From Sedimentisphaerales bacterium (GTDB taxonomy: Bacteria > Planctomycetota > Phycisphaerae > Sedimentisphaerales > Anaerobacaceae), in contig JAFGDN010000025.1 of the NCBI GenBank assembly GCA_016932095.1, positions 1-47,900 of the forward strand: a stretch of DNA of 47,900 bases. Reading direction: 5' to 3'. The stretch's first letter is position 1. Every line of letters starts with the position of its first letter. Below, piece by piece: positions 9,210-20,889 of this stretch. A model generated the notes under the pieces. It was not told the DNA's origin. It was given only the letters and a program-made list of their open reading frames with translations, and did no database searches. Position numbers and translations under genes: made by a program.

Positions 9210-9692
9210 TCAGCGTTTTTTTGCAAAAAACTCCTGTAAAATTTGACTGCATTCCTCAGCCAAAATACCGCTTGTTACATCGACACGATGATTAAGGCGG
9301 CTGTCCTGAACGATATTATACAAAGATTTTACAGCGCCGGTTTTGGGGTCGTCACAGCCGTAAACCAGCCGGTCGATGCGGGCTAACACTAAAGCTCCGG
9401 CACACATACAGCAGGGTTCAAGGGTTACGTAAATCGTGCAGTCGTTGAGGTGCCAGTTTTCGAGGGCCGCTGCCGCTTGTGTGAGTGCGATGATTTCGGC
9501 GTGGGCGGTGGGGTCCTGCAATTGCTCCCTTTGGTTATATGCCTTTGCGATGATTTGGCCTTTATGGACGATTACCACCCCGATGGGCACATCGCCATTT
9601 TCCTCGGCGATTCTCGCCTGGTCGAGGGCGATACGCATATACTGCTCATCGGGAGAGGGTTTTGAAATTGAATTGGAAGCCGGCTCAATCAT
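9210..9692 (-). CDS. tadA: tRNA-specific adenosine deaminase TadA
   Basis: The 160-residue zinc deaminase has HAE at 64-66 (His ligand and catalytic Glu) and PCCMC at 93-97 (Cys ligands C94 and C97), plus GDVPIGVVIV and RIDRLVYGC, the TadA signature. It converts A34 to inosine in tRNA-Arg(ACG) so that one tRNA reads CGU/CGC/CGA. The N-terminal ~18 residues precede the usual family start (YMRIALDQA), so M19 is an alternative start; neither has a strong ribosome-binding site. The gene runs divergently from the integrated element, whose left boundary is about 100 bp upstream. Confidence 0.95.
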   Translation of the reverse strand: MIEPASNSISKPSPDEQYMRIALDQARIAEENGDVPIGVVIVHKGQIIAKAYNQREQLQDPTAHAEIIALTQAAAALENWHLNDCTIYVTLEPCCMCAGALVLARIDRLVYGCDDPKTGAVKSLYNIVQDSRLNHRVDVTSGILAEECSQILQEFFAKKR

Positions 9693-9773
9693 AATCGAAC
9701 GTTGAACAATGGAACAGTTGACCGCATTTGAGCATTTACATCTTCTCTACTGTTCACCTGCTCACCTGCTCTA

Positions 9774-9794
9774 TTTTTTGCCTTCGGCAAAAAA
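9774..9794 (-). terminator. Hairpin terminator, probably the native terminator of tRNA-Glu
   Basis: TTTTTTGCC (9774-9782) and GGCAAAAAA (9786-9794) form a 9-bp stem with a TTC loop and T-runs on both strands. It ends exactly where the left att core begins. Joining the flanks without the element puts this hairpin directly after the tRNA-Glu 3' end on the minus strand. It therefore looks like the tRNA terminator, now 11 kb from its gene. Confidence 0.65.
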
Positions 9795-9808
9795 TACCCC
9801 CAAGGGGA
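9795..9808. other. attL core (left 14-bp direct repeat)
   Basis: TACCCCCAAGGGGA is identical to 20791-20804. The next base differs (G here, C on the right), and TCGAA then matches again, as expected when the left copy continues into element sequence and the right into tRNA-Glu. Translated in the integrase frame it encodes YPQGE. Confidence 0.85.
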
Positions 9809-9995
9809 GTCGAATAAAATCTCACAAAGTTCGGCAGATACAAAACTTAGCGAAAGCTCAATTCCCGACAGGGTGCATAATACGGTGCATCATACCGAGG
9901 ACGGCAGTGACTTGCAACAGGTAATCGACGCCTGGCCAACACTGCCCGAGAACGTCAAATCGAAAATTATTGAGCTTATCAAGCTGGGGAAATGA
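9795..9995 (+). pseudogene. Split 3' end of the element integrase (free-form C-terminus)
   Basis: An open frame of 66 codons runs from the att core to TGA 9993-9995 and has no start codon of its own. It encodes YPQGESNK at the att core and ends with LQQVIDAWPTLPENVKSKII, resembling the C-terminal tail I associate with planctomycetal tyrosine integrases. The frame is the same as that of the integrase at the right att copy (TAC CCC CAA GGG). If the ends were joined in a circle, the integrase would read through attP into this segment and be 494 residues long instead of 460. It is thus a piece of a split gene and not ordinary decay; expression in the integrated state is unlikely. Confidence 0.75.
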
Positions 9996-9997
9996 TT

Positions 9998-10270
9998 ATG
10001 AAAAAGGCAGAATCAACTGAGCGTTTACTGAGCGTATTCGACGTGGCTATGAGGATTGGAGTTAATATAACAACAGTCAGGCGTCACATGCACGAGCTTA
10101 TGGCCAGCGGTTTACAGCGAGTAGAAATTGGTGGTAGAACGCGATTGATTCGGTTTAGAGAGGATTCACTAAACCGGATGATTCGCCGAGCGGTCGAGCG
10201 TGATGAACCGCTCATTAAAAATAGTTGTGTGCAGTCGGGGCCAGGTGTATCTGGTCCCGTGAATACTTGA
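9998..10270 (+). CDS. Small HTH DNA-binding protein, candidate excisionase/recombination directionality factor
   Basis: The ~90-residue basic protein has a helix-turn-helix pattern LLSVFDVAMRIGVNITTVRR (about residues 11-30), then a wing-like IGGRTRLIRF segment. This layout fits MerR-like/excisionase-type regulators. ATG 9998 has GGGGA 8 nt upstream; the earlier ATG 9992 overlaps the integrase-tail stop as ATGA. In the circular form it would follow integrase directly, which is the usual place for an excisionase; in the integrated form it is the first gene at the left end. Function is inferred from fold and position. Confidence 0.6.
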   Translation: MKKAESTERLLSVFDVAMRIGVNITTVRRHMHELMASGLQRVEIGGRTRLIRFREDSLNRMIRRAVERDEPLIKNSCVQSGPGVSGPVNT

Positions 10271-10278
10271 ACCCCGGG

Positions 10279-10302
10279 GCCCGCTGCGGGTTATCAGCGG
10301 GC
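10279..10302 (+). terminator. GC-rich hairpin after the HTH gene
   Basis: GCCCGCT (10279-10285) pairs with AGCGGGC (10296-10302) around a 10-nt loop, 8 nt after the HTH stop codon. A short A/T tract follows but not a strong T-run, so it may be a weak terminator or attenuator. Confidence 0.4.
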
Positions 10303-10328
10303 ATTTATAAAAAAGTGGAGAAACGACA

Positions 10329-10433
10329 ATGAAGAATGTAACATATACAGTCAGCGACGGTATTCAGATTTCGTATCCGTTCGTAGGTTGTGCGATAATG
10401 ATTGCCCTGATGCTTGTTTGGGCAATGGTTTAA
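10329..10433 (+). CDS. 34-residue single-span membrane peptide
   Basis: ATG 10329 is preceded by GGAG (10317-10320) at 8-nt spacing. The peptide has a polar N-terminus (KNVTYTVSDGIQISYP) and one hydrophobic helix (FVGCAIMIALMLVWAMV) that reaches the stop codon. Small membrane peptides in phages act, for example, in exclusion or lysis; nothing in this sequence decides the role. It is supported by the ribosome-binding site and helix and has not been recognised as a known family. Confidence 0.45.
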   Translation: MKNVTYTVSDGIQISYPFVGCAIMIALMLVWAMV

Positions 10434-10464
10434 TCAACTATCGGTCGGGAAGGTCGGCTTGCAA

Positions 10465-10529
10465 CCGGCTAAGTGGTTTGGCCTCTGGTAAGGATATCTG
10501 GTCCCCCTCCAGAGGTCAAGCCAGCCCGG
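10465..10529 (+). ncRNA. Long structured leader upstream of the next gene
   Basis: GGTTTGGCCTCTGG (10475-10488) pairs with CCAGAGGTCAAGCC (10509-10522) through 14 consecutive pairs (two G-U) around a 20-nt loop. CCGGCT (10465-10470) can extend the helix with AGCCCGG (10523-10529) across small bulges. It sits just before the putative ribosome-binding site AAAGGGG (10531-10537) of the gene starting at 10545. It could be a cis-regulatory RNA; no known riboswitch class is recognised. Confidence 0.4.
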
Positions 10530-10544
10530 CAAAGGGGCCAGAAT

Positions 10545-11159
10545 ATGAAAGTAACAAAAAAAGCAACAAAACACAGTCCAGCCGAGGTAAAGCATCGAAT
10601 AACCGATGAATTACAAAAGAGAGCAGGTTGGAAAAGAGTTTGGCCGATGTATCCATTCCGCGAGGGTTATATTAGCTGTGTATATGACCCTGATTTTCCT
10701 CAAGCGGGACCCAAACATGGCAAAGTGATTGACCCGCTTACAAAAGAACAAATCTGCTTTATGAAACAAATCCTGCAAGCTCCATTTAATTATTCTGCTT
10801 TAGGAGCTTTCCTTATCCAAAAATGCGGAGTTGCACAACTCGATAATTTGACTTGGCCAGATATCCTTTGGCATTTTGAGTATTATGCTCGAAGGGCTGA
10901 TGCCGACGCCGGCGGTCATAAAATTGAGTCATCATCGAAAATAAATCCAGAAGGCAGCAAGGAAGCCCAAGCTTTGATATGTTTAGTGGAGCATCCTGAG
11001 TGGTCTAATACGAAAATTGCCAAAGCGATAGGAGTAAATCGAACCACTTTATACAAATGGAAATTCTTCAAAGATTCAAGAAAACTTATGAAGGAAAAAG
11101 AGCGAAAAATCCCATATGGCAATAAAGATGAGACCGGCAAAATTGAAGCTTGGGACTGA
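10545..11159 (+). CDS. Hypothetical element protein with C-terminal helix-turn-helix
   Basis: The 204-residue protein is not assigned to a named family. Residues ~1-110 are mixed and aromatic (RVWPMYPFREGYISCVYDPD, ILWHFEYYARRADADAGG). The last third holds a resolvase/terminase-small-like HTH, WSNTKIAKAIGVNRTTLYKW. ATG 10545 was chosen over the upstream 10473 because AAAGGGG precedes it and the upstream extension overlaps a strong RNA hairpin. It lies in the early region, before the replication genes, so a regulator is plausible. Confidence 0.55.
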   Translation: MKVTKKATKHSPAEVKHRITDELQKRAGWKRVWPMYPFREGYISCVYDPDFPQAGPKHGKVIDPLTKEQICFMKQILQAPFNYSALGAFLIQKCGVAQLDNLTWPDILWHFEYYARRADADAGGHKIESSSKINPEGSKEAQALICLVEHPEWSNTKIAKAIGVNRTTLYKWKFFKDSRKLMKEKERKIPYGNKDETGKIEAWD

Positions 11160-11301
11160 AATAAGTAAGTCGATAGGCGACATTTTTGGCGACACTTCAA
11201 AATTATAACTGCTGATTTTGTAAAGAGTTATCATTTTTAGTTAGCAACACCCACGCTACATTCAGCCATTATTCAGATAATGTTAAGTTTTGGATGATGG
11301 T

Positions 11302-11487
11302 ATGAAGAACAATCAAAATATAACGGACGCCTTCAACAATCCTGTTGCGTGGTTTCTCATGCTGGAACGGGCTAAACAACTCCATAATTTTGAATTGGCC
11401 GCAAAGGCACTACGTGAACTTGAACGTTTGGGGGTCATAGTTAAATACCGCAAACCAATTTTGATGAGGGAGAGAATGCAAGGATGA
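11302..11487 (+). CDS. Small hypothetical element protein
   Basis: The 61-residue, mainly helical protein (PVAWFLMLERAKQLHNFEL, ALRELERLGVIVKY) has no recognised domain. ATG 11302 follows GGATGATGG; a TTG at 11290 would add four residues. Its last codons overlap the following excisionase-like gene by 4 nt, consistent with one early operon. Confidence 0.5.
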   Translation: MKNNQNITDAFNNPVAWFLMLERAKQLHNFELAAKALRELERLGVIVKYRKPILMRERMQG

Positions 11488-11687
11488 ATGCTGCCCCCTC
11501 AATTCTGCCCCGTCTCATCAAACCGAAAGAAGCATCGCTTTATATCGCCATCAGTGAGCGGACCCTATGGGGACTGACAAAGGCAGGAACTATCGCGGCT
11601 GTAAAAGTTGGCCGAGCCGTTCGCTATGACGTGAGGGACCTTGACCATTTCATCGAGCAGAGTAAGTCACGGGGGGAATCAAAATGA
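11484..11687 (+). CDS. HTH_17/excisionase-family DNA-binding protein
   Basis: The 67-residue product has the MerR-type winged helix used by excisionase-family proteins: LIKPKEASLYIAISERTLWG, then a wing AVKVGRAVRYDVRDLDHFIE. It overlaps the preceding gene by 4 nt. It is a second candidate, beside the 9998 gene, for the directionality factor, or it may regulate the early operon. The domain call is solid; the role is inferred. Confidence 0.75.
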   Translation: MNAAPSILPRLIKPKEASLYIAISERTLWGLTKAGTIAAVKVGRAVRYDVRDLDHFIEQSKSRGESK

Positions 11688-11709
11688 TGGGAGGCAGCCA
11701 GGGACGGCT

Positions 11710-12483
11710 ATGAGCGGTAATCGAATCACTTATGTTCGCATTCCGACAGCTCTATACTCAGTGGACGGTTTGACTACGTTGCAGGTCAATGTCTTAGCTT
11801 TGATTGTGGGTTTCGACCAAGACGGCTTACAGCTTTCAAGCGAAAAACTCGCTGACGTATTTGGAGTAACGCCGCGGGCCATCGACCAGGCGGTCAAAGT
11901 GATGACTCAAAAGGGATATATTCGGGACCTTGTTGGGCAGAGTGGCAAGCGTCGCAATCTTATTGCAACCCCTGAAATCTTTTCAGTGGTTAAGGGGGAG
12001 CAACCCCTGAAAAATATTCAGAGCATCCCCGAACAAAATTCGGAGCAACCTCTGAACGATTTTCGGAAGACCTCTGAAAAATGTTCAGTGACTACCAAAC
12101 AGAAACTCAATAAACAGAAGAGAACTAAAACGTTCAGCCCGATGTCTGACGAAGTTCGATTGTCGCAATTATTGCTTGATTTAATTCTTGCACGCAAAGG
12201 CGATTACAAACGCCCTGATATTCAAATATGGGCAAGATGTATCGACTTGATGATACACATTGACCGCCGGGACCCGAAACGTATTGAAGCCGTCATCAGG
12301 TGGTGCCAGGCGGATGCTGGCAACGGTAACGGATGGGCAGGTTGGCGGGATAATATTTTATCGACAGCAAAGCTCCGCGAAAAGTTTGATAAACTGGAGC
12401 TGGCAATGGAGAATGCACGCAATGACAGAAACACAGCAGCTCGGGGACGTTTTCAGGCAGCCCCCGACGCCCTCACAATCTGA
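11710..12483 (+). CDS. Phage-type replication initiator-like protein (winged helix)
   Basis: The 257-residue protein opens ITYVRIPTALYSVDGLTTLQ and has a winged-helix domain, LADVFGVTPRAIDQAVKVMT and KGYIRDL (about 55-85). A polar linker follows, then a C-terminal segment RIEAVIRWCQ..GWRDNILSTAKLREKFD, similar to the conserved C-terminus of phage O-like/DnaD-like replication proteins. ATG 11710 starts at the conserved part; 11641 would overlap the preceding HTH gene. The next gene, which overlaps by 62 nt, encodes a helicase loader, the usual pairing for initiating replication of a phage or satellite circle. Confidence 0.7.
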   Translation: MSGNRITYVRIPTALYSVDGLTTLQVNVLALIVGFDQDGLQLSSEKLADVFGVTPRAIDQAVKVMTQKGYIRDLVGQSGKRRNLIATPEIFSVVKGEQPLKNIQSIPEQNSEQPLNDFRKTSEKCSVTTKQKLNKQKRTKTFSPMSDEVRLSQLLLDLILARKGDYKRPDIQIWARCIDLMIHIDRRDPKRIEAVIRWCQADAGNGNGWAGWRDNILSTAKLREKFDKLELAMENARNDRNTAARGRFQAAPDALTI

Positions 12484-13207
12484 AAGGCGATGTAGTTGCG
12501 GTCAAGCTATCGAGCCGGTTGGCATTGGGACCTTTATTCATTGGCCTAAAAAATGCTCGCATTGTCGAACAGTAATAGAAGCTCAGGAGCGGCTCAGAGG
12601 TATTCGCATCGGGAGAGAGAGCAGACGGGATAAGCTCCGCGGCTTACTGAAACAAAAACCGGCACCGCTGGGTGAGGAAATCATACCGCCACTGTTTGAG
12701 AAATCACACTTACGTCGATTATCACCGAAACTCAGAGCTGCTATGCTGGGTCTGCCGACAGGTCGAGGCCTGTATTTATGGGGGCCGTGCGGAGTCGGTA
12801 AAACCTATTCGATGTCTGCTCTGATACGGCATTACGTTTTATCAGGATACCAGGTTGGCCGGGTGCAGTTCACGCGGCTGCTCAGAGAGCTTCGCGGATG
12901 CTATTCAGGTTCAGGAAGCGAGCATAAAATTTTGAAATGGGTTGAGAGTGTCCCCAGATTATTCATCGAGGATTTAGGGATTGCACAGGCCCGCGAGACG
13001 GAATTTGCGACGCGGGTGCTTTTAGAGGTTGTCGATTATCGGCTTGAGCATCGTTTACCGATGTTTGTCACCAGTAACAAATCGCTTGACGAAATTGAAT
13101 CGGCTTTTGGTGAACGCATCGGTAGCAGGTTGCACGCTGCCTGTATTGTTCTACCTGTTGGTGGAGCAGATAAGCGGCGATCCGGTCCAGAGAAAGGTTT
13201 ATTTTGA
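12422..13207 (+). CDS. DnaC/IstB-like AAA+ helicase loader with N-terminal zinc ribbon
   Basis: The 261-residue ATPase has Walker A GPCGVGKT (121-128), Walker B FIEDLG (181-186), sensor-1 FVTSNKS and a C-terminal arginine pair in GSRLH, as in DnaC/DnaI. The N-terminus carries a CxC...CxxC set (C24, C26, C45, C48) that could bind zinc, as in primosomal loaders. ATG 12422 was chosen because upstream codons would lie deep inside the initiator gene. With the initiator it should recruit the host replicative helicase to the element origin. IstB transposition proteins share the ATPase fold, but no transposase is present. Confidence 0.75.
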   Translation: MTETQQLGDVFRQPPTPSQSERRCSCGQAIEPVGIGTFIHWPKKCSHCRTVIEAQERLRGIRIGRESRRDKLRGLLKQKPAPLGEEIIPPLFEKSHLRRLSPKLRAAMLGLPTGRGLYLWGPCGVGKTYSMSALIRHYVLSGYQVGRVQFTRLLRELRGCYSGSGSEHKILKWVESVPRLFIEDLGIAQARETEFATRVLLEVVDYRLEHRLPMFVTSNKSLDEIESAFGERIGSRLHAACIVLPVGGADKRRSGPEKGLF

Positions 13208-13219
13208 GGAGTAAATATC

Positions 13220-15517
13220 ATGGCTACAATCGGCTCACTTGTTGTAAATCTTATCGCTAATACTTCGCTTTTCGATAGCGGGATGCGTAAGGGACAAACC
13301 GGCCTCAAGGGTTTCGTCGCCAGCATCGACAAGACACAACGTCAAGTAATGGGTTTCGCCAAAGCTATAACAGCCGTCGCCGGAATGGCCGGTTTGACAT
13401 ATCTGGTCAAGAAGACGATGGATTCAATTGAGGCAACTGCCCAATTATCCAACCGGCTTGGCATGGCTACAGAGGACCTAATATCGCTGCAATACGCGGC
13501 CGAACAATCCGGGATGGGCACCGAGGAGATGAACAATGCCCTTGAGACGTTTGTTCGGCGAATCGGTGAAGCCCAGAGCGGCGGCGGTGCAGCGGCCAAA
13601 ACTTTAAGAGAACTTGGTTTGTCAGCTCATCAAATAGCATCCACTGACCAAACAGAAAATCTTAAAATGTTTGCTGACCGGATAAATCAACTACCCACTG
13701 CTGCGGAGCGAGCGGCTGTGGCTTATGACCTGTTCGGTAAGAAAGGCCAGGAGATGCTTAACGTGCTGGCTGGAGGCAGTGCCGGCATCGAGGAGGCCCG
13801 CAAGCGAGCCGAGCAGCTGCGTATTACATTCTCTAATTTCGATGCCGCTAAAGTGAAGGTTGCAGTAGACAAACTATATGACGTCAAGAAAATCTTAACC
13901 GCCATCGCTGAGAAAGCGGTAATTGAATTGTCACCATCTATCGCGGCCGCTGCGGAAAAACTGATTGAATTTGTAATCGCCGGTGGGGATATGCGAGCAA
14001 AAATGATAGCTGGTATAAAAGATGTCACAATAGCATTCGCCTATCTCGGTAATGGCATAAAAGTCATCATAGGATATCTTGAAGGCGTAGCTGGAATAGG
14101 AGCAACGTTAGCTACTGGTTTTGCCGGGATTCTCTCTTCGATTGGTCTTGTCTCGAAAGAATACGTAGAGGGTATGGCTGATGTTGCGAATAAGCTGATT
14201 TTAGACGCTGGTAGAGTCATAGAGGAACAATTGCCATCCGAAAAAGTGGAGGCATGGTTCGCTGACCTCGACAAACGTTCTCAGAGCATAAAGAGTGAGC
14301 TTGAAAGGGCCGCTCAGATAGCAGCGGGCTTCCCAAAACTTACATTCGCCGATATCAAAATCACCGAAGGCCTGCAGGATATGCTCGATGCTCTTGAATT
14401 TGAATACGATATGCTGAAAAAGTCAAATCGTGAAAGGGAGAGAGCTATCAAGCTGTTAAGATTCAGGAATGAGCTCGACAAGGCATACAACGTCAAAATA
14501 TCTGGAAATCTACAGGGAATAGGTCCCCAAACCGAGGGATGGGATAAATTGACGGCCGTTCAGCAAAAGGCGATTTTGTTAGACCAGCAATATCAGGATG
14601 GTCTGGCAAAATATGAGGAGCGTATGACAGGATTTGACGCATTCACGTCTAAAATGCAGGATTGGGCCGAAAGTGCGTCAAACGTCTGGGCTAATATCGG
14701 AGATGTAGCTGCACAAGCTCTGGATGGAATCAGTGCCAAGTTGACTGAGTTGATTACAACGGGTAAAGCCAACTTTAAGGAATTTGCAGCTTCGGTTATG
14801 TCTGATTTGCTTCAAATGATGATACGTGCACAGATGGTTCAGATTTTACAGAACATACCAGGTATTGGCGGAATGTTTGGCGGGGGAGCTGGTGCAGCAG
14901 GACAATCGGCTGCTGCCTCACAGTTATCTGCATCAGCAACGATGTTAAATACGGCCGGCACGGTTTTGAACACCTCAGGGACAATGCTGAACTCCGCAGG
15001 AACAATGTTGAATACGTCGGCGATTAGTATGAATACAGCCGTTGCGTTAATGAATTCATCAGGACCTACACTTTTATCCGCAGCGATGATGCAGCAGACA
15101 TCATCAGCTCTGTTAAATACGGCAGCGGTGAATCTTATGGCCGCGGCTACTGCTCAAACGGCTCAGAATATTTCCGCTGCTGCCGGGGCAAAAGGTTTGG
15201 TATTAAAGGCCGGCAAATTGTTACCTTATGCCACAGGCGGTATAATCGATAGGCCCACATTTTTCCCAATGGCCAAGGGTAATATAGGGATGATGGGAGA
15301 GGCAGGGCCCGAGGCGATAATGCCTTTAACCCGGGGACGGGATGGGCGGTTAGGTGTGAGTGCTGATGGAGGCAGTCAACCACCCGTCAATGTCAAGATT
15401 ATAAACGTGTATGATAAAAAGCAAATGATTGATGCGATAGGGACGCCTGATGGCGAAAAGAAAATCTTAAACGTGCTGAGCAGAAACAAGGGTATCGTAA
15501 AAGGTATGCTGAATTAA
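13220..15517 (+). CDS. Phage tail tape measure protein (lambda gpH-like C-terminus)
   Basis: The 765-residue protein starts IGSLVVNLIANTSLFDSGM, typical of tape measures. It has long helical stretches, hydrophobic helices near 270-310, and the diagnostic C-terminal block MGEAGPEAIMPLTRGRDG followed by LGV. It would set the length of a siphophage-type tail tube; at the usual ~0.15 nm per residue the ruler predicts roughly 115 nm. Residues ~575-612 form a heptad-like repeat (NTAGTVL, NTSGTML, NSAGTML, NTSAISM). GAGGAGT precedes ATG 13220. It is unusual that no tube, terminator or assembly-chaperone gene accompanies it. Confidence 0.9.
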   Translation: MATIGSLVVNLIANTSLFDSGMRKGQTGLKGFVASIDKTQRQVMGFAKAITAVAGMAGLTYLVKKTMDSIEATAQLSNRLGMATEDLISLQYAAEQSGMGTEEMNNALETFVRRIGEAQSGGGAAAKTLRELGLSAHQIASTDQTENLKMFADRINQLPTAAERAAVAYDLFGKKGQEMLNVLAGGSAGIEEARKRAEQLRITFSNFDAAKVKVAVDKLYDVKKILTAIAEKAVIELSPSIAAAAEKLIEFVIAGGDMRAKMIAGIKDVTIAFAYLGNGIKVIIGYLEGVAGIGATLATGFAGILSSIGLVSKEYVEGMADVANKLILDAGRVIEEQLPSEKVEAWFADLDKRSQSIKSELERAAQIAAGFPKLTFADIKITEGLQDMLDALEFEYDMLKKSNRERERAIKLLRFRNELDKAYNVKISGNLQGIGPQTEGWDKLTAVQQKAILLDQQYQDGLAKYEERMTGFDAFTSKMQDWAESASNVWANIGDVAAQALDGISAKLTELITTGKANFKEFAASVMSDLLQMMIRAQMVQILQNIPGIGGMFGGGAGAAGQSAAASQLSASATMLNTAGTVLNTSGTMLNSAGTMLNTSAISMNTAVALMNSSGPTLLSAAMMQQTSSALLNTAAVNLMAAATAQTAQNISAAAGAKGLVLKAGKLLPYATGGIIDRPTFFPMAKGNIGMMGEAGPEAIMPLTRGRDGRLGVSADGGSQPPVNVKIINVYDKKQMIDAIGTPDGEKKILNVLSRNKGIVKGMLN
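14942..15060 (+). repeat. Degenerate 21-bp/7-residue repeat in the tape measure gene
   Basis: Consecutive 7-residue units NTAGTVL, NTSGTML, NSAGTML, NTSAISM and NTAVALM begin near codon 575. The Asn/Thr/Ser-rich face with a Leu/Met at every seventh position suggests a helical ruler segment that can change length by slippage. Confidence 0.6.
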
Positions 15518-15540
15518 CATACAGAAAGAAAGGGTTATCA

Positions 15541-15768
15541 ATGATATGGATTATAATAAACATCGCAATAATGGCAGCTCTCAGCTATGGCATTTCAGCT
15601 TTGATGTCTAAGGACCCAAAGAATTACAATCAGGACCCGTCTAAGGATATCGATGTTCCGACTGCAGACGAAGGCGTCGAGGTCCCTGTCTTGTTCGGCA
15701 CCAGACGTATCAAAGGGCCAAACGTGGTTTGGTGGGGTGACCTGAAAACCAAAGCGATTAGGAAATAA
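15541..15768 (+). CDS. Small phage tail-type protein fragment
   Basis: The 75-residue product has an N-terminal membrane-like helix (IWIIINIAIMAALSYGISAL) followed by VPTADEGVEVPVLFGTRRIK and GPNVVWWGDL. That stretch is familiar from larger phage tail/tip proteins; here the protein stops soon after, so it may be a truncated version or a natural short form. AAAGGG lies upstream of ATG 15541. It follows the tape measure by 23 nt and is probably in the same operon. Confidence 0.55.
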   Translation: MIWIIINIAIMAALSYGISALMSKDPKNYNQDPSKDIDVPTADEGVEVPVLFGTRRIKGPNVVWWGDLKTKAIRK

Positions 15769-15770
15769 TT

Positions 15771-16070
15771 GTGGACGATTTTCAAAAAGAATTTAACGAG
15801 CTTTGCAGAACCACAAGCACTCTTGAAGTGCAATTCGCTAATGCCCTGCAAAAAACTCATGGACTCGAACTCGGGACTCTGGACAATCTCTTGGGGGTAA
15901 AATCCCAGCTTGAATTGTTTATAGCAGATTTCGAGGATTCTATCCGCCTATTGAATGATGGAGAGCATGAAATCACCATTGATTACCTGTCAGAATGGAC
16001 TAATAGTTGTCGGGAAGCTTTGAAAAGAACAGAGGAAAAAATTGAAAAAGGTGATTACAAAACAGAGTGA
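15771..16070 (+). CDS. Hypothetical acidic helical element protein
   Basis: The 99-residue protein starts with GTG 15771, 2 nt after the preceding stop codon. It is acidic and predicted helical (DFQKEFNELCRTT, FIADFEDSIRLLND, REALKRTEEKIEKGD). No domain is recognised. Its place before the capsid gene could suit a scaffold or head-decoration role, but nothing in the sequence shows this. Confidence 0.5.
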   Translation: MDDFQKEFNELCRTTSTLEVQFANALQKTHGLELGTLDNLLGVKSQLELFIADFEDSIRLLNDGEHEITIDYLSEWTNSCREALKRTEEKIEKGDYKTE

Positions 16071-16072
16071 TT

Positions 16073-16196
16073 CACGCCACGGCGGTTTTGCTCTGATTTT
16101 TTTGTGGTTAGTTTATTGTGATGAAGTATTTTGCACGCCACGGCGGCTAAAGCTTCAAGGAAACAGAAATAATACTTTATCAAAAGGAGCTTTATT
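16073..16196 (+). repeat. Two copies of CACGCCACGGCGG before the capsid gene
   Basis: CACGCCACGGCGG occurs at 16073-16085 and 16134-16146. The second copy continues CTAAAGCTTCA, and a diverged form (GCCACGGCAACTAAAACTTCA) lies after the capsid gene at 17529-17549. The spacing is 48 bp and there are only two close copies, so it is not a CRISPR array. AAAAGGAG near 16182-16189 is the capsid ribosome-binding site. Confidence 0.55.
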
Positions 16197-17495
16197 ATGA
16201 AGATTTTAGCAGGTATGCGTAAAAAATTATATGACTTGAGCAAAATTGAAGATACACGCAGTTTGTCTGACGTGGAGCTTGCCGAGGTCGAGCGGCTTGA
16301 AAATGAAATTGTCAAGCGTAAAGAATTCCTCGAAAAGCAACGTCAACTCGATGTAGCTGATGACGGCGATGAAAGCCAGGATATCGGTATCGGTTTAGCA
16401 GCACCACCGAAGGGCAAAAAAGGCAAGGTGGATAACGGCGGCTTTGAGAATGCAGGTGAGTTCATGCAGGCCCTTTACCGCAAGTCACGTGGTGAAGGAT
16501 TTGATGACCGCTTGAGGAAATTGCAGGTTGCCGCGGTATCCAATTCGGATACAGGTGGGTTCGCGGTGCCGACGCAGTTTGTGCAGAGGGCTTTCGATAA
16601 CGGCCCTGCGGGGGAAAACGGCATTGTGCTGTTGAACCTGTGCGATAAGGTCCCGATGACCAGTGATAAGATGACTGCCCCAGGCCTGCAAAATAACAGC
16701 CACGCCGTTGCACCGTTCGGCATCGCGTGGTCACAGGTTAGCGAAAATGGGGACATTCCCGAAACCGATGTTGAGCTTCGAGCCATTCAGCTTGAGGCAT
16801 ATAAATCCGCCTGTTTGTTCTATGCCTCGAACGAATGGCTGGCTGATAGTGCTCCGTTTATGAGAAATCGGCTCAGCGAAATATTCAACAACTCGCTCCG
16901 TTGGTATATCGAGAACAAGATTATTACCGGCACGGGAGTTGGAATGCCAAAGGGTGCTCTCAATGCGGCTGCGACGTTGCAGATTAACAAGGAAACGGGG
17001 CAGGCAGCGGACACGATTATGACCGAGAATATCCTCAAGATGTGGGCCAGGTTGTTGCCTGGTAGTCATAGTCGGGCTATCTGGATGGCGAATCAGACGT
17101 GCTTCCCTGAGCTGGCAGCATTGAAGTTGATAATCAAGAACGTCGCCGGCACCGAGAACGTGGGTGGAAGCTTTGTGCCCCTGCTGCAAATCAACAACAG
17201 CGGCATCGCTGGCCAACCCGCGACAAGCATCCTCGGCCGGCCGTTACATTTCTCGGAGCACTTGCCGGTATTGGGCGATGCAGGGGATCTTATCCTAATC
17301 GACCCGCTGCTGTATGTTCTTGGTGACAGGCAGCAATTGGTCTTGGATGCAAGTCCGCATTTCAAATTCAATCAGGATAAGACAACATTCAGAGGCAAGG
17401 CAAGGTTTGATGGTGAGCCGGCATTGAGCAGCACGTTCACGCCAAAGAACGGTGACACGTGTGGCTGGTGTGTGAAGATACAGGCACGGACCTAA
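16197..17495 (+). CDS. HK97-fold major capsid protein
   Basis: The 432-residue protein has an N-terminal coiled coil (VELAEVERLENEIVKRKEFL) and an acidic linker like the HK97 delta/scaffold domain. The mature part begins after about residue 105 with the family start SNSDTGGFAVPTQFVQ. It contains the E-loop/spine-type segments GIAWSQVSENGDIPETD and TDVELRAIQLEAYKSAC, and a P-loop/axial region with LGRPLHFSEHLP and LILIDPLLYVLGDR. The family normally needs a protease to remove the delta domain; no protease gene is present. AAAAGGAG precedes ATG 16197. Flanked by short direct repeats. Confidence 0.93.
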   Translation: MKILAGMRKKLYDLSKIEDTRSLSDVELAEVERLENEIVKRKEFLEKQRQLDVADDGDESQDIGIGLAAPPKGKKGKVDNGGFENAGEFMQALYRKSRGEGFDDRLRKLQVAAVSNSDTGGFAVPTQFVQRAFDNGPAGENGIVLLNLCDKVPMTSDKMTAPGLQNNSHAVAPFGIAWSQVSENGDIPETDVELRAIQLEAYKSACLFYASNEWLADSAPFMRNRLSEIFNNSLRWYIENKIITGTGVGMPKGALNAAATLQINKETGQAADTIMTENILKMWARLLPGSHSRAIWMANQTCFPELAALKLIIKNVAGTENVGGSFVPLLQINNSGIAGQPATSILGRPLHFSEHLPVLGDAGDLILIDPLLYVLGDRQQLVLDASPHFKFNQDKTTFRGKARFDGEPALSSTFTPKNGDTCGWCVKIQART

Positions 17496-17691
17496 AATGG
17501 TCTGAGTTATCCTTGAGGGATTTGGTATGCCACGGCAACTAAAACTTCATTGATAGCTAACAGTTTCATTCTGACCTGTCAGGACTTGTAGTCATTGGCA
17601 GGGTAAAATCCTCTCTTAAACAGAGTGAGGGCGAAAAGGCAATGATAAAGCTTAAGTAGCCCTCACAATGTTATAAAGCGATGGGGCGACG

Positions 17692-17877
17692 ATGCGAAAA
17701 AGAGAGCCGGATGTTGTTGAGTTAGCTAAGAAACAGAGGCACTTGTATCTATTGCAAAAGGTCAAGCGGTGCCAGTTACTTAGCATACCAGAGATAGGTG
17801 AGCTTGAGTATTATGAACGCATTAGAGCAAACAACAACAAACGCAAGCGTGGCAGTAAGGCCCAAGACGTTCACTGA
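17692..17877 (+). CDS. Small basic hypothetical element protein
   Basis: The 61-residue basic protein (MRKREPDVVELAKKQRHLYL, NNNKRKRGSK) has no recognised domain. It overlaps the HNH gene by 65 nt in another frame. GGGGCGACG before the ATG is a moderate ribosome-binding site. It might be a head-associated DNA-binding protein, but that is not shown. Confidence 0.4.
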   Translation: MRKREPDVVELAKKQRHLYLLQKVKRCQLLSIPEIGELEYYERIRANNNKRKRGSKAQDVH

Positions 17878-18166
17878 GTTGAGGGAAGGGCAAAGGCACA
17901 GTCCAGTTGTTACTCGTGATAGTGCTTGTGAGCGTGGTTATAACTATCGCTGGCGTAAGGCACGCATTGCATACCTGATTAAGAACCCACTGTGTGTTGA
18001 GTGTGCGTCCGAAGGCCGCACTGAGCAGGCAGTGGTTGTTGACCACATCATTCCCCATAAAGGTAATCGTGAATTGTTTTGGAATAAGAACAATTGGCAG
18101 GGCTTATGTAAACGTCACCATGATATTAAAACTGCTAAACAAGATGGGGGATTCGGTCGCGTATGA
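17813..18166 (+). CDS. HNH endonuclease of the phage packaging type
   Basis: The 117-residue nuclease has the HNH core: CVEC (zinc ligands), VVVDHIIPHKGN, NWQGLCKRHHDIKTAKQDGG, with the catalytic His in DHIIPH and the closing CxxxHxxKT signature. HNH proteins of this size next to terminase small subunit genes are required with terminase for cos cleavage in HK97- and phiSLT-like phages. Start is ATG 17813; GTG 17798 is an alternative. A cos-like region and the terminase small subunit follow at once. Confidence 0.85.
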   Translation: MNALEQTTTNASVAVRPKTFTELREGQRHSPVVTRDSACERGYNYRWRKARIAYLIKNPLCVECASEGRTEQAVVVDHIIPHKGNRELFWNKNNWQGLCKRHHDIKTAKQDGGFGRV

Positions 18167-18211
18167 TTAAAGATAATTGTATATGTTCGTTGTCTTTAAT
18201 GTGCATAGGCA

Positions 18212-18301
18212 GGGGGGGACATAATCCCTACAGTCCGAGAATTTGTAGACCGCGTCCCAGCTCGCTCTTTTTTTTGTCAAAATTCGACAGGGGGGGGGTA
18301 A
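18212..18301. other. Candidate cos (packaging) site
   Basis: Between the HNH and terminase genes lies a ~90-bp stretch bounded by G-runs (18212-18218, seven G; 18290-18298, nine G). It contains ATAATCCCTACAGTC, GACCGCG and an 8-T run followed by GTCAAAATTCG. This arrangement resembles the region between HNH and P27-type small terminase genes of cos phages, where the cohesive-end site lies. The exact nick positions cannot be read from sequence. Confidence 0.5.
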
Positions 18302-18319
18302 AGGTGAAAAAGGACAATA

Positions 18320-18790
18320 ATGGGTAGGCCGAGAAAGCCAACAACACTGCTTAAAATACACGGAACTTTCCGTGAGGATAGACGTGCAACAGACGAACCG
18401 ATGCCAGCCATTGCTATTCCGTCGATGCCGAAATTTCTTAAGGGTGAAGCCGCTGCGGAGTGGGAGCGTGTCGCCCCGCTACTTGCCAAGATGAAATGTT
18501 TGACTGAATGGGATAGGTCACTGCTCGCGGCCTACTGTTTCGAATGGGGCGTTTACGTTGAGCTCTGTAAAAAGGTCAAGCTCAAAGACCTTACCATTAC
18601 CACGGTAAGCGGTAACAAGATTTATAATCCACTTTTAGCATCTCGAAACAAAGCATTGAGCAATCTAAAAGAGCTTGCCATTCAGTTCGGCTTAAGCCCG
18701 AGCTCGCGTTCACGGCTATCGGTCAGTGAAGAGGAAGAATCTAATCCGTTCCTTGCATTATTGCAACGAAGGGGTATACGGGGCAGTTGA
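18320..18790 (+). CDS. Phage terminase small subunit, P27 family
   Basis: The 156-residue protein opens with the P27 signature GRPRKPTTLLKIHGTFREDR and continues with FLKGEAAAEWERVAPLLAKM, LTEWDRSLLAAYC and KALSNLKELAIQFGLSPSSR, all typical of the family. It should recognise the adjacent cos-like site and select DNA for packaging. In phages it is followed by terminase large subunit; here only about 250 bp separate it from an unrelated gene, so the motor ATPase must come from elsewhere or is lost. AAGGAC precedes ATG 18320. Confidence 0.92.
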   Translation: MGRPRKPTTLLKIHGTFREDRRATDEPMPAIAIPSMPKFLKGEAAAEWERVAPLLAKMKCLTEWDRSLLAAYCFEWGVYVELCKKVKLKDLTITTVSGNKIYNPLLASRNKALSNLKELAIQFGLSPSSRSRLSVSEEEESNPFLALLQRRGIRGS

Positions 18791-18886
18791 CGCGGACTTT
18801 TTCGATTACAGGCGGTATTTTGTGCGTATTTTGGGGTTCTGGCAGGGAAGCCGACCGTTTTACAGGACGTGATTATTCAATAAAAT

Positions 18887-18915
18887 TTGGTGAACGGGTG
18901 AAAATTTGTTATACT
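18887..18915 (+). promoter_or_regulatory. Candidate promoter before the structured RNA
   Basis: TTGGTG (18887-18892) and TATACT (18910-18915) are separated by 17 bp. The -10 matches the sigma-70 consensus at five of six positions, the -35 at three. Initiation about seven bases downstream would place +1 at or next to the first base of the inverted repeat at 18922. Confidence 0.45.
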
Positions 18916-18921
18916 TTAAGT

Positions 18922-19015
18922 GTTAGAACCTTAAGATGCAATTCCACCGAACATTTATGGCCGGGCGTGGTTTGTCCGTAAGGGGCAGCCGTTCCTCGTA
19001 TCTTGAGGTTCTAAC
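18922..19015 (+). ncRNA. Candidate structured RNA closed by a 16-bp stem
   Basis: GTTAGAACCTTAAGAT (18922-18937) pairs with ATCTTGAGGTTCTAAC (19000-19015) over all 16 positions with a single G-U. The 62-nt loop is GC-rich and can form smaller helices (for example CCAC with GTGG and GAAC with GTTC). It sits in the leader of the gene at 19047, with a promoter just before it. It may be a leader regulator, a small RNA, or a DNA site such as an origin. No known family is recognised. Confidence 0.5.
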
Positions 19016-19046
19016 AACGACCGGCCGCTTCTATTTGGGGTGATTT

Positions 19047-19523
19047 ATGAGGAGCAATAAAAGAACGTTTTACGCAGAGGATTTAGGAGCTTGGGGATTC
19101 ACACAACAAGAGATTGACGCCCTTGTTCAAAAAGACGTCATAGCAGCGGCTAAGAAAATCGAAAATCCTGTTCTATTTACGTTTTCGCCCAAGGTGGTTC
19201 GCTGGCTTTTATATGCCTTAGAACATAAGACCACTAATCACCCTTGCGAGGGTATCGACCAAGAAAATCTAAACATAGACCTGAAATTTGCAAAAGCAGA
19301 ATTCGCCAAATATCCGGCTGGGCTTCACGGCCGTATCATCGAGGCCATATACAAGGACCTGCCTGAATTTGAGATTGAATGCAATAAAGAGAGAGAGGAA
19401 GAACGGCTCTGCAACGAATGGACGGCCCTCCTCGATAACAAAACAACGGACGAAATCAGGGCTATGATTACTCAAGTGAAAGCATGTGAACAAGGGCGGT
19501 GTGTAAATGGCAAGCGTAATTAG
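19047..19523 (+). CDS. Hypothetical element protein upstream of integrase
   Basis: The 158-residue, charged, mostly helical protein (FYAEDLGAWGFTQQEIDALV, PKVVRWLLYALEHK, CNKEREEERLCNEW) has no recognised domain. GGGGTG precedes ATG 19047. It overlaps the integrase start by 17 nt, so the two are probably co-translated, and its leader contains the 16-bp-stem RNA. A role tied to integration control is possible by position only. Confidence 0.6.
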   Translation: MRSNKRTFYAEDLGAWGFTQQEIDALVQKDVIAAAKKIENPVLFTFSPKVVRWLLYALEHKTTNHPCEGIDQENLNIDLKFAKAEFAKYPAGLHGRIIEAIYKDLPEFEIECNKEREEERLCNEWTALLDNKTTDEIRAMITQVKACEQGRCVNGKRN

Positions 19524-20889
19524 ACAAAAAACAGATAGCGGGATTCGATATCTAATCCAGCTTAGCCCGGGTGAAAACGAGGCACGGCCGAAAATCAGCT
19601 TGGGTTATGTAACCAAGAGCCAGGCCGAGGCCGCTAAGCTCAATATCGAAAGCGTTATCAAATGCAAAAACACGGGTGCCATAGTATCACCCGCGGTGCA
19701 GGAATGGCTGATAGGCATAGCCGACGGCCTTAGAAAACGCCTGACGGTCCTCAAAATTATCGAGTCGAAAAAAAGCGGCCCGAGCATCACGGTTGCTGAA
19801 TGGGTGAGCCGGTATATTCAAAGCCGTCCCGACGTCAAGGCAATTACGACGGGCAAGTGGCAGAACGCCGCGAATAAGCTCTCAGCTTTTTTCAGGGGGC
19901 AAAACATCGAGGACGTCACGGTTCAACAGGCAAAAGATTTCAGGGTTTATTTGAAATCGGACCAGCTCTCAGAGAATACCGTGCGGAGATTGATAGGTCT
20001 ATCCAGACAGTTTTTTAAGGCCGCGATTGACGCCGGCCGTCTGGATAAGAATCCGTTCGCGGGGCAGCCGATAGCAGTCAGGGCCAACCCGGCAAGGTTC
20101 TTTTACGTGGGGCAGGAAATGGCTTTGAAGGTCCTCGATGCTTGCCCGGATGCTCAATGGCGGCTCATATTTGGCCTGACAAGGTGGGGCGGCCTGCGTT
20201 GCCCCAGTGAGGTCCTTCGGCTCGAATGGCAGGACGTGGATTTTGAGCATGACCGCTTTACCGTTCACGCCTGTAAAACAGAACATCATGCCGATAGCGG
20301 CATCAGAACGGTCCCGATGTTTCCTGAGCTGAGGCCGTTGTTTCAAGATGCCTTTGACAAGGCCGAGGCGGGGGACGTTTATTGTATCACTCGTTATAGG
20401 GACAAATCGGTAAATTTACGGACAAGCATGTCGAAAATTATCCGCAGAGCTGGGCTTGAGGTTTGGCCGAAGATATTTCAGAATCTCAGGAGCACCCGGG
20501 AAACCGAGCTGTTCAAAATGACTCACGGCAACGTCAAGGCCGTCTGTAAATGGATAGGTAACAGTCCAGAGATTGCAATGCAGCATTACGCACAAGTCAC
20601 CGAAGCGGACATTCAGGAAGCGGCCAAGCTATCACTGATAAGCGATGCCGAAAGTCGGGTGCAAAAAACGGTGCATAATCCGGTGCAGACACCCGTTGCA
20701 ATGAATCGCACCGAGTCGCAAGCGATTGTTGTAAATCCTTGTGGTTACGAAACCAAGCGAGAGTTTGCGACATTGTGCGAAAATAAAAATTACCCCCAAG
20801 GGGACTCGAACCCCTGTCGCCGGGATGAGAACCCGGTATCCTGGGCCGCTAGACGATGGGGGCGGTTTTTATTTTCGATTTCAGTATAA
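19507..20889 (+). CDS. int: Tyrosine recombinase/phage integrase (integrated form)
   Basis: The 460-residue frame has a core-binding SAM-like domain (about 95-190: VAEWVSRYIQSRP, IEDVTVQQAKDFRVYLKSD) and a catalytic domain with Arg231 in WGGLRCPSEVLRLEW, Arg328 in QNLRSTRETEL (Gln325 replaces the usual His of HxxR), KWIGNSPE in place of the GHS region, and nucleophile Tyr361 in MQHYAQV. The att core falls at codons 429-433. Codons after that read antisense through tRNA-Glu and are host sequence, so the natural element product probably ends with the tail encoded at 9795-9995. It overlaps the upstream unknown gene. Confidence 0.93.
   Translation: MASVIRQKTDSGIRYLIQLSPGENEARPKISLGYVTKSQAEAAKLNIESVIKCKNTGAIVSPAVQEWLIGIADGLRKRLTVLKIIESKKSGPSITVAEWVSRYIQSRPDVKAITTGKWQNAANKLSAFFRGQNIEDVTVQQAKDFRVYLKSDQLSENTVRRLIGLSRQFFKAAIDAGRLDKNPFAGQPIAVRANPARFFYVGQEMALKVLDACPDAQWRLIFGLTRWGGLRCPSEVLRLEWQDVDFEHDRFTVHACKTEHHADSGIRTVPMFPELRPLFQDAFDKAEAGDVYCITRYRDKSVNLRTSMSKIIRRAGLEVWPKIFQNLRSTRETELFKMTHGNVKAVCKWIGNSPEIAMQHYAQVTEADIQEAAKLSLISDAESRVQKTVHNPVQTPVAMNRTESQAIVVNPCGYETKREFATLCENKNYPQGDSNPCRRDENPVSWAARRWGRFLFSISV
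20791..20804. other. attR core (right 14-bp direct repeat, in tRNA-Glu 3' end)
   Basis: TACCCCCAAGGGGA is identical to 9795-9808. It covers the discriminator base, the acceptor 3' strand and the first part of the T-arm of tRNA-Glu. Everything to the right is host sequence and the tRNA is intact. Confidence 0.87.
20791..20863 (-). tRNA. tRNA-Glu (anticodon CTC)
   Basis: On the minus strand the sequence folds as a 73-nt tRNA: acceptor GCCCCCA with TGGGGGT, anticodon stem CCGGG/CCCGG around loop TTCTCAT (anticodon CTC, plus positions 20827-20829), T-stem AGGGG/CCCCT with TTCGAGT loop, discriminator A, no encoded CCA. Its 3' end is the attachment site of the element. Confidence 0.95.

Follow-up and report, generated by a model that had tools for sequence, protein, structure and literature searches.

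The window analysed here, a 47,900-nucleotide stretch of a Sedimentisphaerales bacterium contig (JAFGDN010000025.1), contains an integrated, phage-like element of about 11 kb (9795-20804). It is bounded by two exact copies of a 14-bp att core, TACCCCCAAGGGGA, the left (distal) one at 9795-9808 and the right one at 20791-20804, both on the plus strand, and the copies stay alike beyond the repeat, agreeing at 19 of 20 positions when it is extended by sTCGAA. The right core forms the 3' end of the integration target, a tRNA-Glu(ctc) gene found by ARAGORN on the minus strand (20791-20863), and at the same time supplies codons 429-433 of int (19507-20889, plus strand), which encodes a tyrosine integrase of 460 residues in its integrated form. 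The product matches Pfam PF13102 and, above the cut-off, PF00589, as well as the PHROG integrase family phrog_1 (3.4e-31), and the active-site Arg, Lys, Arg and Tyr361 of a tyrosine recombinase are invariant in it. Its arm-binding, core-binding and catalytic regions are all complete upstream of the att core. Codon 429 begins at 20791, well downstream of Tyr361 and the other conserved positions, so the prophage enzyme retains the whole catalytic domain. Beyond the core, int reads on into the antisense strand of tRNA-Glu. The original prediction took the last 28 residues to be antisense tRNA, which is true only in part, the last eight codons (20864-20886) lying beyond the tRNA 5' end.

At the far end of the element the int frame continues. 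From 9795 it is open for 66 codons, ending in a TGA at 9993-9995, and this orphan int tail (9795-9995, plus strand) is identified by translation, by a tail profile and by its relatives. Within it, positions 9906-9989 encode a conserved motif, matched with an E value of 1.6e-10 by a profile that itself includes the window sequence. When the ends are simply joined, the int product becomes 494 residues long. Translation thus bore out the coordinates, common frame and two protein lengths originally predicted; only the extreme C-terminus needed correction, with seven residues (ELIKLGK), not six, following ...KSKII. A single 66-codon run is weak evidence, expected by chance in about 4% of cases if 3 of 64 codons are stops, and relatives were therefore examined.

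The other element genes include, by PHROG matches, helicase loaders, a tape measure, a major head protein, an HNH nuclease and a small terminase. Of the ten element ORFs compared with PHROGs, none was recognisable as a large terminase or portal gene, so that the element may be a defective prophage or a satellite. A 67-residue helix-turn-helix ORF (11484-11687, plus strand) is a candidate excisionase, matching TIGR01764 (excise, 6.1e-7, above its cut-off) and phrog_66 (1.2e-7). It is a better candidate than the 92-residue ORF that follows the tail (9992-10270, plus strand), which has weak winged-helix matches, all below curated cut-offs, and was rejected as an excisionase. The ATG of this latter ORF overlaps the tail stop at 9992-9995, so that int would be coupled to it in the circle; relatives have other ORFs after the tail. 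Directly beside the left core lies a perfect inverted repeat, TATTTTTTGCCTTCGGCAAAAAATA (9770-9795), which in the empty site would directly follow the tRNA-Glu 3' end and which integration shifts 11 kb away. Near the same end, a 160-residue ORF on the minus strand (9210-9692) resembles, by eye and from its CxxC and HAE motifs, a tRNA adenosine/cytidine deaminase.

Searching the joined protein against 392 planctomycetal genomes gave relatives in 47, and returned the window protein itself as two separate matches, residues 1-437 and 426-494. We sampled 60 of these relatives' integrases, each with 5' flanking sequence of as much as about 60 kb, together with the window. A tRNA gene was found beside int in 50 loci, the int ORF stopping within the antisense tRNA in 43 of them and running past it in five, and the tRNA targets of the sampled elements fell into 20 anticodon classes. 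In the 33 elements where a distal core copy could be placed, the window's among them, the int frame stayed open for at least 45 codons past that core in 28, against seven and six for the other two frames, and the median open length was 68 codons against 12 and 18. As judged from these sequences, the openness of the int frame is more than chance. In the remaining five elements the tail in the int frame is short or absent, and several phage integrases stop upstream of any att core, so the arrangement is not universal.

Most in-frame tails carry a common motif, DPDLxxLVxxWPxLPxxxRxxI, and 18 of them align as D-L-x-x-[LIV]-[VI]-x-x-W-x-x-L-[PS]-x-x-x-[RK]-x-x-[IL], the Trp being invariant and the Leu and Pro/Ser positions using many different codons. 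The corresponding profile matches 122 of the 392 genomes, and no Pfam model matches the tail. Homologous integrases could have ended near the core with no related tail, which would have spoken against the original prediction; instead a related, conserved tail is present among them. Wherever a tail hit lay on the same contig 2-45 kb from an integrase of this family, it was on the 5' side and the same strand (22 of 22). The closest relative found, in a Phycisphaerales genome (L245), has an integrase 80% identical to that of the window, a tRNA-Glu target, a 7.8-kb element and the same in-frame tail. Between these two the tail motif half gave a dN of 0.31 and a dS of 1.09, rough values from short sequences that, with the alignment, suggest purifying selection on the motif, and the tail as a whole has changed more rapidly than the catalytic domain.

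The case for integration itself as the cause of tail loss is strongest when phage contigs are set against bacterial genomes. We scanned IMG/VR with the int alignment and examined 43 of the 51 loci found, on contigs that are computational predictions. Six of the 43, corresponding to four distinct phages (L194, 496 residues; L201/L203; L205/L206; L210), carry int, core and tail as a single unbroken ORF and have no tRNA in the locus, whereas a fused tail is absent from all 80 bacterial genome loci, where 62 int ORFs stop in a tRNA and four run past it. The frame across attP is thus open, not closed, in related phage contigs, and a longer uninterrupted gene accompanies the free form in L194, L203, L205 and L210. 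The loci L205 and L206 are identical over 4507 bp, yet int occupies a different position in each of their 35.7-kb contigs, as would be expected of a genome that is circular or permuted. For the window element's own free form, IMG/VR queried with a single protein gave no confirmed relative, and phage and plasmid records gave weak partial matches or none. A DNA pattern built from the L194 core found no match. Comparative data strongly support the structural claim of two integrase forms set by integration, and we regard it as practically certain, from gene layout and sequence, that attP lies within int and that integration swaps the C-terminus. Given the four phages in which tail and int form one ORF, it is hard to credit that the orphan tail is a small gene of its own, or belongs to the following gene, and is continuous with int by accident. 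The overlap of the tail stop with the next ATG at 9992 would fit such a gene, but what follows the tail is not conserved, being an unrelated ORF in L245 and differing among the phage contigs.

The coding sequence on either side of the core also contains repeats that, by position and pairing, look like arm-type sites. In the window, 12-bp-spaced repeats inside the int coding sequence, GTGCAAAAAACGGTGCATAATCCGGTGCA (20659-20687, plus strand), are putative P-arm sites, and a matching repeat inside the tail coding sequence, GTGCATAATACGGTGCA (9873-9889, plus strand), is a putative P'-arm site; the match between the two sides has p=0.005 against codon shuffles. An exact pattern scan of the 33 elements detected P-side repeats in 14 and P'-side repeats in 10, where codon shuffling leads one to expect 0.28 and 0.08. 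A pattern-free comparison found 25 of 28 elements to have P/P' matches at p<=0.05, most of them lying between -100 and -160 and between +60 and +78. The repeat sequence varies among elements and matches within each. In L194 the arms are identical at 18 of 18 positions, and five more IMG/VR loci combine strong arm matches with divergent tails. An N-terminal beta-beta-beta-alpha region is predicted alongside significant paired repeats. With such repeats flanking the core in coding sequence, attP would lie entirely within the int gene. The core-and-arm half compared between the window and L245 has a low dS of 0.26, again a rough value from short sequences, as expected if its DNA is constrained.

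An AlphaFold2 model of L194, built on an alignment of 32 sequences, is confident in the arm-binding, core-binding and catalytic regions, is of low confidence at about residues 377-457, mostly the attP-encoded part, and places tail helices at 457-472 and 477-492. It predicts an architecture of catalytic domain, disordered attP-encoded linker and two-helix tail. Its best Foldseek matches are the Tn1549 integrase, lambda integrase and XerA.

The tail is found on more than one kind of integrase. A tail-bearing ORF (L148) led us to a second integrase family, whose members have no significant BLASTP similarity to the window integrase and in most loci examined end within antisense tRNAs. In all 16 cases where tail and integrase hits of this family lay 2-45 kb apart on one contig, the tail was on the 5' side and the strands agreed; pooled over both families the count is 38 of 38, the other three arrangements being absent. 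Thirteen second-family pairs had a clear shared core; in 12 the tail was in the int frame, and in 11 of these that frame was open along its whole length.

These results bear on whether the tail does anything. Int and attP are usually adjacent, and attP might simply overlap the 3' end of int to save space, the tail being tolerated read-through with no function. The completeness of the catalytic domain upstream of the core, the predicted disorder of the attP-encoded part and the relatives that stop upstream of the core are all in keeping with this. We nevertheless consider it unlikely, because a two-helix motif beyond the core is common to two distantly related integrase families, the frame is kept across many different tRNA cores and the motif has a dN/dS of about 0.28 in one pair. 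That the tail has a function in the integrase expressed from the free element is, in our view, very likely. Its function could be some other job in the full-length protein, such as setting stability or making contact with one of the free element's replication or packaging proteins, its loss from the prophage then being incidental. The tail is indeed short and without a Pfam match, and a similar motif ends at least one protein unlike an integrase; nearly every placed tail, though, is linked to an int by both its position and its frame, and we judge this explanation improbable.

The reading we prefer, and think probable as a whole, is that attP lies in int, that the tail is lost on integration and that integration would thereby limit itself. 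The whole attP would lie towards the 3' end of int, with the catalytic domain before it and the conserved two-helix tail after it. The sequences show that in the circle the gene encodes the full-length integrase (494 residues in the window) and that recombination with the tRNA gene splits it, replacing the tail with translated antisense tRNA and sparing the catalytic domain, while the detached tail stays behind at the opposite end of the integrated element. The form adapted for integration (attP x attB) would presumably be the full-length enzyme, expressed from DNA that is infecting the cell or has been excised. The prophage enzyme without its tail may be weaker or redirected, as reported for Mx8, making integration self-limiting and stabilising lysogeny, and excision, probably helped by an excisionase, perhaps the TIGR01764-type protein at 11484-11687, would rebuild the full-length gene. 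Whether the swap acts as a switch of integrase activity or direction is an even question; the conserved tail, the rough signs of purifying selection on its motif and the less active post-integration form reported for Mx8 all point that way. More tentatively, and with the balance leaning against it, the tail might be a portable C-terminal hairpin that reports integration state on at least two distantly related families, needed for integration and cut off by it, and so providing both self-limitation and control of direction.

The closest known system is that of myxophage Mx8 (and in part Mx9), in which attP likewise lies in the integrase gene at a tRNA-like core and integration swaps the C-terminus and leaves the catalytic domain. 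In Mx8, 112 residues are replaced by 13, converting IntP to IntX (PMC6070905, PMC4701971); the integrated form is given as less active (PMC4701971), and the arrangement is termed a molecular switch (PMC6070905). Both the window and Mx8 have the core within int downstream of the catalytic tyrosine (here codon 429 and Tyr361), and the Mx8 protein too has an antisense-tRNA-like stretch, STGLEPV, upstream of its tail. The two integrases are not close kin, BLASTP aligning them with an E value of 0.004 and 19% identity over 94 residues of the core-binding region; the tail motif was not recognised by eye in the Mx8 C-terminus, and Mx8 represents a single phage group, whereas the planctomycetal pattern is phylum-wide. 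Archaeal SSV integrases have the recombination site in the integrase gene, which is split on integration (PMC8371274). These suicidal integrases resemble the window in that respect, but there an N-terminal part is parted from the catalytic domain and the enzyme inactivated, while here only a C-terminal tail is exchanged; self-disrupting recombinases have been called exclusively archaeal (PMC8371274). Streptococcal ICEs at rumA are a further precedent for att inside an integrase gene, although they use serine integrases and a protein-gene target, and a conserved detachable tail has not been described for them. Some mycobacteriophages have integration-dependent immunity through attP in a repressor gene, integration altering the C-terminus of a regulatory protein. 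This analogy, drawn in the original prediction, is less close than Mx8, the altered protein being a repressor and not an integrase, and no repressor was found at the window's att site.

The Islander filter already makes an exception for integrases containing the att site (PMC4383910), and such placement is described as rare and confined to very few elements (PMC4701971). Our search, confined to open-licence literature and hence weak evidence, found no description of a phylum-wide set with a conserved detachable tail and coding-sequence arm sites, and brought up no useful precedent on SLP1, on planctomycetal islands or on similar systems. What is new here is the phylum-wide scale, the shared conserved tail and the embedded arm sites; att within an integrase gene is itself known. 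Among the relatives examined this is the usual arrangement across a bacterial phylum, seen in two integrase families and with many different tRNA genes as targets: in phages and small mobile elements of Planctomycetota, integrating cuts a conserved C-terminal hairpin off the integrase. Dozens of natural pairs of integrase forms are thereby available to probe how a C-terminal segment governs which way, and how strongly, tyrosine recombination runs. It also follows that integrases annotated from integrated elements of the phylum have antisense-tRNA C-termini (GLEPVTS, GDSNPC etc.) and lack their true ends, which is relevant when genome integrases are chosen as engineering tools.

Several loci depart from the usual layout. 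The ORF L148 (G306:C270) has int, core and tail in frame in a bacterial contig and was considered as a free form; this was rejected, its tail being the nearest 5' tail of the next int, and from the gene order it is more likely a tandem junction at which the int of one element runs on into the tail of the adjacent element. A tail also lies just 3' of int in four further contigs (G216:C39, G369:C2, G197:C83 and G025:C5) but, by coordinates, in another frame, which indicates that in-frame fusion is not automatic between different elements; among these five apparent tandem arrays the chimera is in frame in G306 only. In L144 (G110:C40) the tail motif forms the C-terminus of a 481-residue protein unlike an integrase, and these elements may use the hairpin in other proteins too. 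Finally, two second-family integrases (L337 and L331) seem to cross a core of the sense-strand tRNA instead of the antisense, and their tails are still in frame.
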